Assembly: GCA_013297745.1 (NCBI GenBank)
Contig: JAAFIM010000010.1
Coordinates: 1 to 64,000 of the forward strand
DNA from: Chitinophagales bacterium
Lineage (GTDB): Bacteria; Bacteroidota; Bacteroidia; Chitinophagales; Saprospiraceae
DNA length: 64,000 nt
Direction: 5' to 3'
Shown here: positions 2,249-63,561 of the stretch, in pieces
Layout: each line of letters begins with the position of its first letter
Numbering within the stretch: position 1 is the first letter of the stretch
Made by a program: the position numbers and the translations under genes
Notes under the pieces: model-generated
Databases searched by the model: none
What the model saw: only the letters and a program-made list of their open reading frames with translations
What the model was told of the DNA's origin: nothing

Positions 2249-5047
2249 TTACATTTTTGCTTTCAAAAATTCCCCTGTATAAGATTCTTCAACGGCAAGT
2301 AATCCTTCTGGTTTGCCTTGATAAAGTAAATGCCCGCCGCGCTGCCCTCCATTTTTACCCAAATCTATAATATAATCAGCGCATTTTATCACATCCAAAT
2401 TATGTTCGATAACCAAAACGCTGTGCCCAGCCTCCACCAAAGCCTGAAAAGCGATTAATAGTTTTTGTATATCGTGAAAATGTAAACCTGTAGTGGGTTC
2501 GTCAAAGATGAAAAATATCCGCTCTTGGCTGTTTTGTTTGTTCAAAAAAGAGGCTAATTTTACCCTTTGCGCTTCGCCCCCTGATAGAGTGGTTGAAGAT
2601 TGACCCAAACCTACATAACCCAAACCGACCTGCTGTAAAGGTAAAATCAATTTTTTAATCTCGGGCTGGTCGCCAAAAAAATCTATAGCTTCATCCACGC
2701 TCATACTCAACACGTCGTAAATAGATTTGCCTTTGTATAAAACATCCAGCACTATTTTTTGAAAGCGTTTGCCCCCGCAATCTTCGCAGGTAAGGCGCAC
2801 ATCAGCCAAAAATTGCATACTTACCACCGTTTCGCCCTCGCCTTTGCAGGTTTCGCATCGGCCACCTTCTACATTGAAAGAAAAATGTTTAGCTTTAAAA
2901 TTGCTAACCTTGGCGAGTTGTTGTTCTGCAAATAATTTTCTGATGGCGTCATAAGCTTTGATATAAGTCACTGGGTTTGAACGAGAACTGCGCCCAATAG
3001 GTTGCTGGTTGACAAATTCCACGCGGGTTATTTTATCAAAATCGCCTTCAAAACTGCTAAAACCTATATTTCTAGTTTTGCCCCCTTGGATACTATCTAA
3101 TTTGATTTTTAATAGGGGATAAAGCAGTTGTTTTACGAGGGTAGTTTTGCCACTGCCCGAAACTCCTGTGATAACCGTGAATACATTGAGGGGGAAAATT
3201 ACATCTATGTTTTTTAGATTGTGTCTTGTTGCTCCTTTTATACTCAAAAATGAGGTAAAATCCCGTCTTAATTTGGGCAATTCTATGCGCATATCGCCGC
3301 GCATATATTGAGCGGTCAAACTTTCGGCTGCTTCTGTTTGTATGTTTTTATACGAGCCTGCATATACAATCTCCCCGCCATAAATACCCGCCGCTGGGCC
3401 TACATCCACCAAAAAATCAGCTTCTGCAATCACCTCTTCATCGTGTTCTACCACAACCACGGTATTGCCCAAGTCGCGCAGTTTTTTCAACACTTGCACC
3501 AAACGGCTCGTGTCTTTAGGGTGCAAACCTATACTGGGTTCATCCAATATATATAAAGAACTGGTCAAATTACTGCCCAAAGTGCGGGTTAAATGTATGC
3601 GTTGTACCTCTCCACCCGATAAAGTGGACGAAAGTCTATCCATAGACAAATAACCTAAGCCAATTTGAAGCATAAATTTTAATCGTAGTTTTAGCTCGTA
3701 TAAAATTCGCTTGGCTACCAACAAATCATATTCAGAAAGTTCGGTTTCTACCCTTTTTATAAATTTATACAGCAGCCGTGCTGGCATACGCCCAACTTGC
3801 CCTATATTTTTATCCAGAATTTTTACATACAAAGCTTCTTTTTTCAATCGGCTGCCTTTACAGCTTTTGCAGGTTGTTTTGCCACTGTAGCGGGACACTA
3901 AAACCCGATTCTGTATTTTTTGATTTTGAGACTTTAGTTCATCAAAAAAGCCATTTATACCAATCCATTGTTTATTGCCTTCCCACAAAAATTCTAGTTG
4001 GCTTTCGCTCAATAATTTATAAGGTTTATGTATAGAAAAGCTATTTTTGGCGGCTACGCTGATTAGTTTTTCTTTCCAACGGCTTACTTTTTCGCCGCGC
4101 CAGCAGATTACAGCATCTTCAAATATCGTTTTTTCTTTGTCGGGTACCACTTTTGCCTCATCGATGCCCATTACTTTTCCATAGCCTTCGCATACGGGGC
4201 AAGCGCCCAGCGAACTGTTGAAATTAAACATTTGCGGATGTGGCTCTTCAAACAAAATTCCGTCTAATTCAAATCGGTTGCTAAAAGCACGCTCTGTTTT
4301 GGGTTCAGAATCTACCACTATTATACAAGCGCCGTTGCCCTCCTGAAAGGCTAAATGGATAGAGTCTGCTACCCGCTTTTCTAATTCTTCGTCATTTGTT
4401 TCTATCAAAAATCGGTCAATTAGAATTTTTACCCGTTCTTTGGGGCGTTCTATAAATGGATTGTTGGCTAATAGTTTATCAATTTTTTGTTGCTCGCCAT
4501 CCAATAATACCCGCGTAAAACCTTTTTCTTGCAAATACTCCAACAGTTGTTTTAGGCTTTGGTGTTGGCGTATAACCACAGGCGCACACAAAAATATACG
4601 GGTTTCTCGCTCAAAACTAAAAATATATTCTAGTACATCATTTGTGGCATATTTTTTGACCAAATGCCCAGAAATAGGCGAATAGGTTTTGCCAATTCTA
4701 GCAAATAATAGCCGTAGATATTCATAAATTTCGGTTAAAGTCCCTACAGTAGAACGCGCGTTTTTATTCCCTACTCGCTGTTCTATGGCTATAGCTGGAC
4801 AAAGCCCTTTGATAAAATCCACTTCTGGCTTCTTCATTCTGCCCAAAAATTGCCTTGCGTAAGAAGACAAACTTTCTACATAACGTCTTTGCCCTTCAGC
4901 ATATAGGGTATCTATAGTGAGCGACGATTTGCCACTACCCGAAACGCCTGTGATTACAATTAGCTGATTGTGGGGTAGTTCTATCTCTACATTCTTTAGA
5001 TTGTTGGAACGCGCTCCTTTTATAAAAATAGATTTATTTTTTAACAT
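2249..5047 (-). CDS. uvrA: Excinuclease ABC subunit A (UvrA)
   Basis: UvrA is the DNA-damage-sensing ATPase of nucleotide excision repair and works with UvrB and UvrC in the cytoplasm. The 932-residue product has the full family length and two ABC modules. The first Walker A, GVSGSGKSSL, lies near residue 35 and the second, GVSGSGKTTL, near residue 630. Both halves carry the LSGGE signature (TLSGGEVQRIHL and TLSGGEAQRVKL) and a DEP Walker B. Zinc-binding Cys pairs occur at CPVCEGYG, CKSCKG and CETCKGEG/CEDCGG. The gene is monocistronic on the minus strand, with a near-consensus -7 element (TATCTTTC on the minus strand, 5065-5072) close upstream. Confidence 0.97.
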   Translation of the reverse strand: MLKNKSIFIKGARSNNLKNVEIELPHNQLIVITGVSGSGKSSLTIDTLYAEGQRRYVESLSSYARQFLGRMKKPEVDFIKGLCPAIAIEQRVGNKNARSTVGTLTEIYEYLRLLFARIGKTYSPISGHLVKKYATNDVLEYIFSFERETRIFLCAPVVIRQHQSLKQLLEYLQEKGFTRVLLDGEQQKIDKLLANNPFIERPKERVKILIDRFLIETNDEELEKRVADSIHLAFQEGNGACIIVVDSEPKTERAFSNRFELDGILFEEPHPQMFNFNSSLGACPVCEGYGKVMGIDEAKVVPDKEKTIFEDAVICWRGEKVSRWKEKLISVAAKNSFSIHKPYKLLSESQLEFLWEGNKQWIGINGFFDELKSQNQKIQNRVLVSRYSGKTTCKSCKGSRLKKEALYVKILDKNIGQVGRMPARLLYKFIKRVETELSEYDLLVAKRILYELKLRLKFMLQIGLGYLSMDRLSSTLSGGEVQRIHLTRTLGSNLTSSLYILDEPSIGLHPKDTSRLVQVLKKLRDLGNTVVVVEHDEEVIAEADFLVDVGPAAGIYGGEIVYAGSYKNIQTEAAESLTAQYMRGDMRIELPKLRRDFTSFLSIKGATRHNLKNIDVIFPLNVFTVITGVSGSGKTTLVKQLLYPLLKIKLDSIQGGKTRNIGFSSFEGDFDKITRVEFVNQQPIGRSSRSNPVTYIKAYDAIRKLFAEQQLAKVSNFKAKHFSFNVEGGRCETCKGEGETVVSMQFLADVRLTCEDCGGKRFQKIVLDVLYKGKSIYDVLSMSVDEAIDFFGDQPEIKKLILPLQQVGLGYVGLGQSSTTLSGGEAQRVKLASFLNKQNSQERIFFIFDEPTTGLHFHDIQKLLIAFQALVEAGHSVLVIEHNLDVIKCADYIIDLGKNGGQRGGHLLYQGKPEGLLAVEESYTGEFLKAKM

Positions 5048-6118: not shown

Positions 6119-6153
6119 GTTGTAACCCCAAACGAGAATTTAAAAATAAAATG

Positions 6154-6346
6154 TGTTTAGTAAGGTTTTACAAGGTAAAACAAGCAGCAATAATATAAGG
6201 CGCGCTCAATAGCGTGGGGTTTTACACCCCACGCGGCAATAAAAATTTTATCAAAATATATCATTTTTTTATTTGATTTCGTGCGTGGGGTATAAAACCC
6301 CACGCCATTGAGCTCGCAAACTGTACACAGTTTTTCTTACTAAACA
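6154..6346. repeat. Hairpin-rich intergenic element with TGTTTAGTAAG terminal inverted repeats
   Basis: This 193-bp segment has 11-bp terminal inverted repeats (TGTTTAGTAAG at 6154-6164, CTTACTAAACA at 6336-6346). Inside are two hairpins built on GCGTGGGG/CCCCACGC (6212-6234 and 6283-6305), and these are flanked by a wider inverted repeat, GCTCAATAGC/GCCATTGAGC. It has no ORF. The same GCGTGGGG hairpin pair recurs near 59033-59167, and the terminal motif recurs in the elements at 35362, 57190 and 63276. It looks like a non-autonomous, MITE-like element. It makes up most of the 366-bp gene-free interval 6074-6439. Confidence 0.7.
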
Positions 6347-6372
6347 TCTCTATAATATAAATAATCGCGTAC

Positions 6373-35361: not shown

Positions 35362-35627
35362 GAAGTTGTTTAGTATGATTTTTTATCTTTTAATTTCTCT
35401 GTGTTGTGCGGGACTAAAGTCCCAGCACAATTGAGATTTAGGATTTTTTCGCGCTTTTGGGGCTAAAGCCCCGCGCGTTTTATAGTTTTATTAATCAATA
35501 CCAACGGGTTTTAACCCGTTGAAAGACAAAAAAAACGATTACAACAGACTTTAGTCTGTTGCTTAAAAGACATAAATGGTTGTTTTTTTTAATTGAAAAT
35601 ATAGAAAAATTCTTACTAAACAACTTC
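35362..35627. repeat. MITE-like element, family 1, copy A
   Basis: This 266-bp segment has perfect 14-bp terminal inverted repeats: GAAGTTGTTTAGTA at 35362-35375 and its complement at 35614-35627. Inside are four short hairpins: GGGACTAAAGTCCC, GGGGCTAAAGCCCC inside GCGC arms, ACGGGTTTTAACCCGT and CAGACTTTAGTCTG. An inverted, otherwise near-identical copy lies at 63276-63561. No ORF or transposase is present. It fills most of the gene-free interval between rny and the DUF4349 gene. Confidence 0.85.
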
Positions 35628-58962: not shown

Positions 58963-59224
58963 AATGCGAATAAATTTATCGTAAGTATCAAGAACAATTT
59001 ATTTGAGATTATAATTTGCGTTGCAAACTGTATCAATAGCGTGGGGTTTTATACCCCACGCACAAAATATAAAAAAAAACGATATGTTTTATTAAAATTT
59101 AATTGTCGTTTATTACCGCGTGGGGTGTAAATCGGTAGAACCGCGAAGCGAAACCCCACGCTATTGAGCACAAATGGTTTACAAATTTTAATTACTAAAC
59201 AGGTTCAATGCGAATAAATTTATC
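58963..59224. repeat. Hairpin-rich intergenic element flanked by an 18-bp direct repeat
   Basis: The direct repeat AATGCGAATAAATTTATC occurs at 58963-58980 and 59207-59224. Between them are two GCGTGGGG hairpins (59039-59061 and 59118-59161) inside the wider inverted repeat TCAATAGCGTGGGG/CCCCACGCTATTGA, as in the element at 6154-6346. The right end (minus strand GAACCTGTTTAGTAAT, 59191-59206) resembles the MITE termini and abuts the direct repeat exactly. A matching left terminus is not visible. The second hairpin has an enlarged loop (see findings). It occupies the 297-bp interval between the SH3 and hydroxylase genes. Confidence 0.65.
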
Positions 59225-61991: not shown

Positions 61992-62414
61992 ATGAATAAG
62001 ATATTTAGTTTTTGCTTATTGTTATTTGCAGTGGTGAGCTGCCAAACTGCTGAAAATCAACCCGTCATAACCGAACTGCAAGGCGAAACGCTACAGATGT
62101 ATGAAAAGGGAGAACAATTATTTGCTCAATATTGCGCGAGCTGCCATAATGCAAATATGCTAAATAGAGCTACTGCTTCAGCTTTGGGTGGTATAACAGC
62201 ACGCCGCGAGAAAAAATGGTTGTATGATTACATACGCAATCCTGCTAAAATGGTACGGGAAAATGACCCTCAAGCATTAGAAATACATCAAAATAATGCT
62301 GGTTTAATGGTAGGTTCTCCCAATCTTACAGATAAAGAAATAGACCAAATTTTGGTTTATATAGAAGCGACTTATCAAAATAACAAAATCCGCCTACGCC
62401 CTGTAGAGCGATAA
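61992..62414 (+). CDS. Small c-type cytochrome lipoprotein (paralogue 1)
   Basis: The 140-residue product has a lipoprotein signal (VVSC, Cys17) and one haem c motif, CASCH (Cys48, Cys51, His52). A Met within GLMVGSPNLTD could be the distal haem ligand. The fold is a class I cytochrome c with the C-terminal helix TDKEIDQILVYIEATYQN. It probably carries electrons at the membrane surface on the periplasmic side. It is a tandem paralogue of the gene at 62760. The two are nearly identical in the first 40 and last 30 residues but differ strongly between. Confidence 0.88.
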   Translation: MNKIFSFCLLLFAVVSCQTAENQPVITELQGETLQMYEKGEQLFAQYCASCHNANMLNRATASALGGITARREKKWLYDYIRNPAKMVRENDPQALEIHQNNAGLMVGSPNLTDKEIDQILVYIEATYQNNKIRLRPVER

Positions 62415-62418
62415 AATA

Positions 62419-62454
62419 AAAGCTGCTTTTCATAACGAGAAGTAGCTTTTTTTT
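62419..62454 (+). terminator. Rho-independent terminator behind cytochrome gene 1 (repeat copy 2)
   Basis: The same AAGCTGCTT/AAGTAGCTT hairpin as at 61919-61954 with one loop change, followed by eight T. Confidence 0.8.
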
Positions 62455-62455
62455 A

Positions 62456-62729
62456 TTTAAGTAACTGAACAAAATGGAAGTAATTTTTACACTTCAGTAA
62501 AAACTTGGGTTTTGGAAATTTTCTTAACGGCTTACGCCTAAAAATTTCTTTTTCTTCGTACTTTTTGCAGGCGCAAAAAGTACCAAAAACGCCTTGTTTC
62601 TATAAACTTGTTCGCTCCGCTTGCTAAAGCTGCGCTCCGTCTCACTTCAGACAGTATAGAAACTCAACGGATTGGTGTAGTTACGCGCTCCGCGCGATTA
62701 TTCACTTTGTTTTTGTCTACTTACTTAAA
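62456..62729. repeat. Insertion-like segment between the two cytochrome genes
   Basis: Compared with the short spacer in front of cytochrome gene 1, the spacer in front of gene 2 carries about 270 extra bases. They are bounded by TTTAAGTAA (62456-62464) and TTACTTAAA (62721-62729). Inside are the hairpin GTACTTTTTG/CAAAAAGTAC (about 62560-62583) and a GC-rich patch of CGCTCC-type repeats (62620-62697). No ORF is present. It looks like a small non-autonomous insertion of a family different from the other elements. Confidence 0.55.
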
Positions 62730-62759: not shown

Positions 62760-63182
62760 ATGAATAAGATATTTAGTTTTTGCTTATTGTTATTTGCAGT
62801 TGCAAGCTGCCAAACTGCTGAAAATCAACCCGTCATAACCGAGCTGCAAGGCGAAACACTACAGATGTATGAAAAGGGAAAAGAGTTATTTTTATCGAAA
62901 TGTTTAGCCTGCCATAACAATGATATGCTAACTGCAAGTACTGGTTCTGCCTTAGGAGGCATAACTCAGCGTAGAAAAAAAGAATGGTTGCGCAGTTATA
63001 TTCGCAATTCATACAAAATGATATTAGAAAAAGACCCAGAAGCGGTAGAATTATATGCGAAGGCTCAAGTGGTTATGCAGGGTTTCTCCAATCTTACAGA
63101 TGAAGAAATAGACCAAATTTTGGTTTATATAGAAGCGACTTATCAAAATAACAAAATCCGCCTACGCCCTGTAGAGCGATAA
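62760..63182 (+). CDS. Small c-type cytochrome lipoprotein (paralogue 2)
   Basis: The 140-residue product has the lipobox VASC (Cys17) and the haem c motif CLACH (Cys48, Cys51, His52). A Met in VVMQGFSNLTD may be the distal ligand. N- and C-terminal parts match paralogue 1 almost base for base, while residues about 41-108 have diverged, including the haem-surrounding loop. It is probably a periplasm-facing electron carrier with a different partner or potential. It is transcribed from its own promoter and followed by the third copy of the shared terminator. Confidence 0.88.
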   Translation: MNKIFSFCLLLFAVASCQTAENQPVITELQGETLQMYEKGKELFLSKCLACHNNDMLTASTGSALGGITQRRKKEWLRSYIRNSYKMILEKDPEAVELYAKAQVVMQGFSNLTDEEIDQILVYIEATYQNNKIRLRPVER

Positions 63183-63187
63183 AATAA

Positions 63188-63223
63188 AAGCTGCTTTTCA
63201 TCACGAGAAGTAGCTTTTTTTTA
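63188..63223 (+). terminator. Rho-independent terminator behind cytochrome gene 2 (repeat copy 3)
   Basis: The same AAGCTGCTT/AAGTAGCTT hairpin, identical in the loop to copy 1, followed by eight T. Confidence 0.8.
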
Positions 63224-63275
63224 TTTTCAATGCTGTTGTTTATACTACTTTTTTTATCTTTGCGGTTTATTCTTT

Positions 63276-63561
63276 GAAGTTGTTTAGTAAGAATTTTTCT
63301 ACATTTTCAATTAAAAAAAATAACTATTTATGTATTTTAAGCAACAGACTAAAGTCTGTTGTAATCGTTTTTTTGTCTTTCAACGGGTTAAAACCCGTTG
63401 GTATTGATTGATGAAACCATATAACGCGCGGGAGTTCGCTTCGCGGTTCTTCGAAGTAGTCCCAAAAGCGCGAAAAAATCCTAAATCTCAATTGTGCTGG
63501 GACTTTAGTCCCGCACAACACAGAGAAATTAAAATATAAAAAAAGCATACTAAACAACTTC
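63276..63561. repeat. MITE-like element, family 1, copy B (inverted relative to copy A)
   Basis: This 286-bp segment has perfect 14-bp terminal inverted repeats (63276-63289 and 63548-63561). Read on the opposite strand it matches the element at 35362-35627 nearly throughout, including the hairpins CAGACTAAAGTCTG, ACGGGTTAAAACCCGT and GGGACTTTAGTCCC. The exception is one hairpin, where the 8-base loop of copy A is replaced by about 28 bases (63433-63460). It fills most of the gene-free interval 63183-63583. Confidence 0.85.

Follow-up and report, generated by a model that had tools for sequence, protein, structure and literature searches.

Precisely inserted G+C-rich words in the hairpin loops of multi-copy elements of a Chitinophagales genome: probable very small dispersed repeats

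To our knowledge, it is chiefly from cyanobacteria, as SDRs, that mobile units of about 20 nt have been described. In the work of Elhai et al. 2008, the SDRs of Nostoc, of some 20-odd nt, were reportedly inserted precisely, often within other repeats and minitransposons, and are said to share small hairpins with two-sided stem changes. GCGAAGC is a classic extraordinarily stable DNA hairpin.

The Nostoc SDR work is cited in passages of PMC3116915 and PMC4390886. Passages of PMC3733652 describe REP families with alternative loops (GTAG-3, GTAG-14), REPs inserted within palindromes and a REP (GTAG) stem of 6-13 bp, and the pairing of REP/REPIN elements with Y1 (RAYT) transposases is reported both there and in a passage of PMC3116915. 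REP palindromes are also the targets of IS1397, ISKpn1, IS621 and other insertion sequences, according to an excerpt of PMC1525189. Template-switch (quasipalindrome) mutation, the subject of PMC8794818 and PMC7202029, creates or mends stems by hairpin-bound copying. Finally, short DNA hairpins of extraordinary stability are described in part of PMC10527192.

In the window analysed here (the whole stretch of 64,000 nucleotides), the original prediction had placed one 16-bp segment in the hairpin loops of two unrelated elements. The 16-mer was indeed found exactly at 63435-63450 on the forward strand and at 59137-59152 on the reverse strand. The relevant features are the following.

6154 to 6346, forward strand: E1 element with TGTTTAGTAAG at both ends and both hairpins (6212-6234 and 6283-6305) empty
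35362 to 35627, reverse strand: copy of element B with both loops empty (copy A of the original prediction), from the genome search and the comparison of filled and empty copies
59039 to 59061, no strand assigned: empty sister hairpin in the same E1-type element near 59000
59118 to 59161, no strand assigned: filled hairpin GCGTGGGGT ... ACCCCACGC of the E1-type element
59132 to 59152, forward strand: 21-bp insert TCGGTAGAACCGCGAAGCGAA (word w1) in the loop of a GCGTGGGG hairpin, with the 16-mer at 59137-59152
62500 to 62725, forward strand: F element with its hairpin at 62597-62662, without w2
63276 to 63561, forward strand: element B with ends GAAGTTGTTTAGTA, from a genome search with this stretch
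63426 to 63471, no strand assigned: hairpin 2 of element B with its loop filled (GCGC-GGGA ... TCCC-AAAA-GCGC), from the sequence and DNA folds of the filled and empty forms
63437 to 63456, reverse strand: net 20-bp insert (w1 plus its left-hand neighbour) within the B hairpin 2 loop, from filled versus empty B copies

Three kinds of element host the 16-mer. E1-type elements comprise a pair of GCGTGGGG hairpins, and B has a hairpin 2 with GGGA/TCCC; the several hairpins of E2 include GCGTTGGG, GTGTTGGG and GCGTGGGG. By eye, the GCGTGGGG hosts are long-stemmed, with ATAG or TTAG next to them. The element near 59000 is called E1-type solely for its two GCGTGGGG hairpins, and a search with 6150-6350 did not list it among its matches (40 of 257 candidates scored). 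B, E1 and F elements each have many copies in the genome, at least 49 matching pieces being found for B (40 of 178 candidates scored); copy A has an empty loop, as predicted, and is 89% identical over the whole of element B. The ends read TGTTTAGTAAG on both sides of the E1 copy at 6154-6346, TGTTTAGTA on both sides of B copies and TGTTTAGTAA at one end of the element near 59000. The hairpin sequences of the two elements do differ, but with such similar ends the elements are perhaps not wholly unrelated. The end TGTTTAGTA is common to E1 (6154-6346) and B (63276-63561), and therefore one transposase may move both. A separate observation concerns the surroundings of F: a segment of about 60 bp (62400-62460) recurs almost unchanged some 770 bp further on (about 63170-63230), the second repeat lying behind a cytochrome c gene (62760-63182) and the F element between the two, perhaps by local duplication.

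No match to the 16-mer with up to two mismatches occurred in 100 dinucleotide shuffles of the window, which rules out a chance origin of its two places. We searched the genome assembly (4.28 Mb, 154 contigs) and recovered 24 exact places, against none for the reversed control pattern, and 32 places at up to two mismatches. When the contexts were read, each of the 24 exact places proved to lie where an E1-, E2- or B-type hairpin has its loop. Perfect 9-bp arms flank 17 of them, compared with 0.29% of 20,000 random window positions. At the other 7 places, 4-5 bp of perfect pairing adjoin the word and the stems are shorter, mixed or mutated (3 are B hairpin 2, 2 combine arms of different hairpins and 2 have mutated stems); since perfect pairing of at least 5 bp is seen at 23.5% of random positions, arms of this length are not unusual by chance. 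Of the 8 further near-copies, 7 also sit at E1, E2 or B loops, a decayed B copy holding one of these. The sole exception among the 32 lies on contig C67, with two mismatches, in an unrelated stretch, and by our arithmetic about two such stray matches are expected by chance. The 16-mer is thus not widespread outside hairpin loops, with 31 of 32 near-copies inside them. Nor do its two occurrences in the window belong to one longer repeat aligned through the stems: this candidate was rejected, as the two places cannot be aligned by way of their stems. We also observed w1 between the arms of two different hairpins, at the first site of L007/L013 (C24:36393) and in L025 (C91:6845), as would be left by a crossover inside w1.

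Comparison of filled with empty loops defined the inserted unit. An empty E1-type hairpin reads GCGTGGGGTRTAAA^ACCCCACGC, and its filled counterpart is the same with 21 bp, TCGGTAGAACCGCGAAGCGAA, added; the junction of this insert at 59132-59152 is ambiguous by up to 2 bases. The stretch inserted in the two loops measures not 16 bp but 21 bp at 59132-59152 and a net 20 bp at 63437-63456. Precise 21-bp changes between filled and empty states were found in GCGTGGGG, GCGTTGGG and GTGTTGGG hairpin loops, and the insertion site in E1/E2 is TRTA^AAAC. B hairpin 2 changes from GGG(A/G)CTT^TAG(T/C)CCC to GGG(A/G)GTT-20 bp-TAG(T/C)CCC, its outer pair being A-T or G-C in filled and empty copies alike. 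Because base 63434 also differs, from C in empty to G in filled copies, this event is not a pure insertion. Similarly, the filled loop of B hairpin 3 is without the AG of the empty loop. These impure insertions in B hairpins 2 and 3 fit copying better. Among 81 non-redundant contexts of GCGTGGGG hairpins, the 7-base loops TGTAAAA (30) and TATAAAA (26) made up the majority, and w1 or a near variant occupied 14; it was present in 1 of 21 contexts of GTGTTGGG hairpins and 4 of 12 of GCGTTGGG hairpins, these filled fractions not being genome rates as the stretches were fetched around matches. In the fetched stretches, three of the strings presumed to be pre-insertion sites of w1 had no match and two others had one unrelated match each, so that no fitting site was recovered. 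As few as two acquisitions of w1 are needed, and the rest may have spread by copying.

Some occurrences are located near contig ends (for instance at 3402 of 3463 in C53 and at 68104 of 68158 in C57) in an assembly of 154 contigs, as would be found if short reads had been misjoined across near-identical repeats. Such an artefact is very unlikely to be the general explanation: both copies of the window lie well inside the contig, and the same junctions appear in many contexts and at different sites, which misjoined homologous repeats do not make. Misassembly could explain some loop flips at most, not the insertions at different sites.

We take the 16-mer for the core of w1, a probable very small dispersed repeat belonging to a set of G+C-rich words that reside in intergenic multi-copy elements: w1 (21 bp, with a possible 12-bp core), w2 (19-23 bp), w3 (23 bp) and w1' (about 43-45 bp). 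The last was detected at 27 places genome-wide, in the same kinds of loop as w1; the 20 non-redundant contexts listed are loops of B hairpin 3, E1-type and similar hairpins, and one of them adjoins a Y1 transposase gene. Filled/empty pairs of w1' were obtained for E1-type loops and B hairpin 3. Shared by w1 and w1' are TTCGCTT(A)CGCG at one of the ends and, close to the opposite end, GGTT; judging from this, one word may be nested in the other. The variant of w1' is consistent within each loop type, TCTGCGG in E1-type and TCTTCGG or TCTTCAG in B3, which is what a single acquisition per hairpin type would give if the words were immobile, that is, acquired once or twice by ordinary mutation and carried along with their elements, the filled and empty states then being mixed by gene conversion. 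The many copies of B, E1 and F would provide the partners for it.

Word w2 argues against such immobility. It reads GAACGGCG(T)AAGCCCTCC, occurs at 55 places in the genome and shares GAAC-S-GCGAAGC with w1, from which we infer that the two words are related. Its precise insertion was documented by filled/empty pairs at seven sites with six different flanks (the F arms mirror each other). Five sites are in F, where homologous copies elsewhere in the genome exhibit w2 in either arm of the hairpin (same sequence, opposite strands), in the loop or at two downstream sites; site H is the loop of a TTTTTTTC/GAAAAAAA hairpin, and site J1 that of a short CGCC/GGCG hairpin, reading CGCC^AAAAA. Conversion between homologous copies cannot create insertions at seven sites that have empty counterparts, and we regard immobile words as unlikely overall. 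The five F sites and H read N^GAA and, once filled, have GAA to the left and right of the insert, except that the right-hand GAA is missing in one downstream F copy (L205); rather than being a duplication, this constant GAA may belong to the site itself. The w1 site of E1/E2 (TRTA^AAAC) resembles these w2 sites. Mirror copying as the source of w2 in both F arms is possible and not needed: separate insertions suffice because each arm has a TRTA-GAAAC site and single-arm copies exist. Directly between arms of at least 8 bp, w2 was seen in only 3 of 48 contexts. As it is inserted in stem arms and outside hairpins, a loop is not required. The loop targeting that had been predicted is only partly right: two acquisitions would suffice for w1, and its close relative w2 is inserted with equal precision elsewhere. 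Of 37 distinct F contexts, 16 had none of the four scored places filled and the other 21 showed 11 combinations, counts that are not a genome rate as many contexts were fetched for carrying w2.

Site J1 could be compared in 16 listed rows, 8 without insert, 6 with w2 and 2 with w3. The w2 rows (L140, L165, L181, L194, L204, L213) carry GGC-GAA-GCC and the w3 rows (L171, L180) CCC-GAA-GGG, so that at one and the same position in homologous copies both sides of the 3-bp stem enclosing the GAA triloop have changed; J1 is the one clear case of this kind. GAA/TTC triloop hairpins were in surplus as well, a surplus given no weight because the stretches had been chosen for these words. A stem differing on both sides could be read as a sign of selection, the enlarged loops acting in RNA (as terminator, stability or protein-binding hairpins) and being kept for that reason. 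We hold this to be extremely unlikely, since filled and empty states coexist in otherwise identical copies, w2 is also found outside loops and folding of the isolated words is no better than that of shuffled sequence (z from -0.07 to -1.36), the fold program attributing no special stability to them. No host function is implied for the words. The own stems of w1 and w2 measure only 3-4 bp, w1 having just a 3-bp CGC-GAA-GCG or an alternative 4-bp hairpin. The proposal of a tiny mobile palindrome accordingly fits as to a tiny mobile element and hardly as to a palindrome. No terminal inverted repeats, a MITE feature, were visible by eye in w1, w2 or w1'; they are present in the host elements E1 and B.

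We therefore favour, with some reserve, the reading in which w1, w2 and probably w1' are very small dispersed repeats, precisely inserted and later reshuffled among the copies of their host elements. One mechanism would insert w1 and w2 at short A-rich sites, exposed by hairpin loops and probably single-stranded; afterwards, short-tract recombination or stem-anchored template switching during replication would swap filled and empty loops between the copies of an element. The first candidate for the mover would be a Y1 HUH (RAYT-like) transposase acting in trans on a folded single strand, the second template switching without a dedicated enzyme. A more specific form, in which single-strand mini-hairpins (about 12-20 nt, GCGAAGC) insert before (G)AAA in single strands exposed by loops and are moved in trans by Y1, is speculative and rather doubtful.

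The exchange of loop states was followed in B. Both loops were readable in 39 copies, which represent 29 different sequences once the loops are cut out. Hairpin 2 is filled in 5 and empty in 34 of them, hairpin 3 filled in 18 and empty in 21, and the loop-free tree demands at least 5 and at least 13 state changes, respectively; these counts are soft because only 5 of the 26 inner branches are well supported. Regardless of the tree, loop state differs within three groups (of ten, three and two rows) whose members agree in all of the last 200 nt when the loops are removed. We searched for possible conversion donors of those filled copies having an empty sister at 7 differences or less (three of the five at hairpin 2 and 11 of the 18 at hairpin 3). 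Around the loop of each, another filled copy matched over 52 to 266 bases, a length that would suffice for conversion, so ordinary short gene conversion is possible.

The same data can be considered in terms of template switching at stalled hairpins, in which the polymerase would exit at the loop, copy the loop of a hairpin with a similar stem and return. The creation or mending of hairpins by template switching is on record (PMC8794818), the loop of B hairpin 2 changes while the outer stem pair of the subfamily (A-T or G-C) stays, and the arms of w1 hairpins can be mixed. The donor must however be close, and w2 at hairpin-free sites or with different flanks is left unexplained; as described in PMC8794818, such mutation copies nearby or nascent-strand sequence, whereas here one word recurs in dispersed hairpins. 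As a full account, template switching is possible but doubtful, and the same holds for the reverse path, in which a loop would be dropped and the stem perfected. Our confidence in it and in the favoured reading overlap, because template switching may be the reshuffling step, a role in which it is possible.

Outside the genome, the 16-mer was found in 2 of 100 genomes, its own included, the other containing a single match in an unrelated G+C-rich stretch, and the w2 pattern in its own genome only out of 198; the comparison genomes share at most the family or order and in no case the genus, and exact-pattern searches would miss diverged relatives. A wide bacterial spread is not supported, four records having been obtained with unrelated flanks where by our arithmetic about four are expected by chance, in a search that may leave out the genome of the window and its near relatives. 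A phage origin is not supported either: no viral contig had the w1 pattern, and the 80-bp flanks of the three with w2 show none of these elements. The best reading is that w1, w2, w3 and w1' are lineage-specific. A T9SS sorting domain over the cut-off and a TonB receptor with a SusC/RagA match under the cut-off both fit Bacteroidota. A title-level literature search, with many journals outside its scope, returned no title naming such words in Bacteroidota.

Of the known kinds of repeat, the SDRs of Nostoc and relatives are the closest to these words. Like them, the words are repeats of about 20-30 nt at many dispersed places (24 for w1 and 55 for w2; w1' has 27 but measures 43-45 bp), with precise insertion and an empty site in homologous copies, apart from the impure B hairpins 2 and 3. 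Unlike them, they belong to another phylum, one of the words is confined to hairpin loops and insertion takes place at GAA- or AAA-rich sites rather than at HIP1, the likeness being one of description. With IS1397, ISKpn1 and IS621 they share the insertion into repeated palindromes; those are whole insertion sequences with a transposase, whereas the insert here has 20-45 bp and no gene. Compared with REP/REPIN elements, Y1 genes are likewise present, but the own stems of w1 and w2 (3-4 bp) are shorter and one word is common to hairpins with different stems. The findings are also relevant to the question of how different loops come to be present in REP-like palindromes that share a stem. This genome of another phylum, in which many filled/empty pairs are clean, the site is short and single-strand transposases are at hand as candidates, would make an SDR-type mechanism testable. 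If mini-hairpins were truly moved by Y1, few known mobile DNA units would be as small, and they would come from outside the cyanobacteria.

Five Y1_Tnp (PF01797) matches were detected in the genome, all over the cut-off and one partial, and hairpin arrays lie beside three of them, one array being GTAG-tagged. Two B-type hairpins are near L161, and no hairpins of such kind were listed near L164. L162 is adjoined by an array of CCCCGCGT/ACGCGGGG hairpins and L160, by eye, by one of GCGCGGGGTATAAAACCCCACGC-like hairpins, in which w1' is whole in one hairpin and cut by the stretch end in another. The link of the words to the Y1 genes is one of association only. L163 is adjoined by a GTAG-tagged CCCCACGC/GCGTGGGG palindrome array with w2-like and w3-like words in the repeat unit, a possible source of the words. 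Directly behind its Y1 transposase gene, at 1973-2476 (about 46.2-46.7 kb of C24), tandem units of about 92 bp each combine the tagged palindrome with AACCCCGAAGGGGTT and w2-like words.
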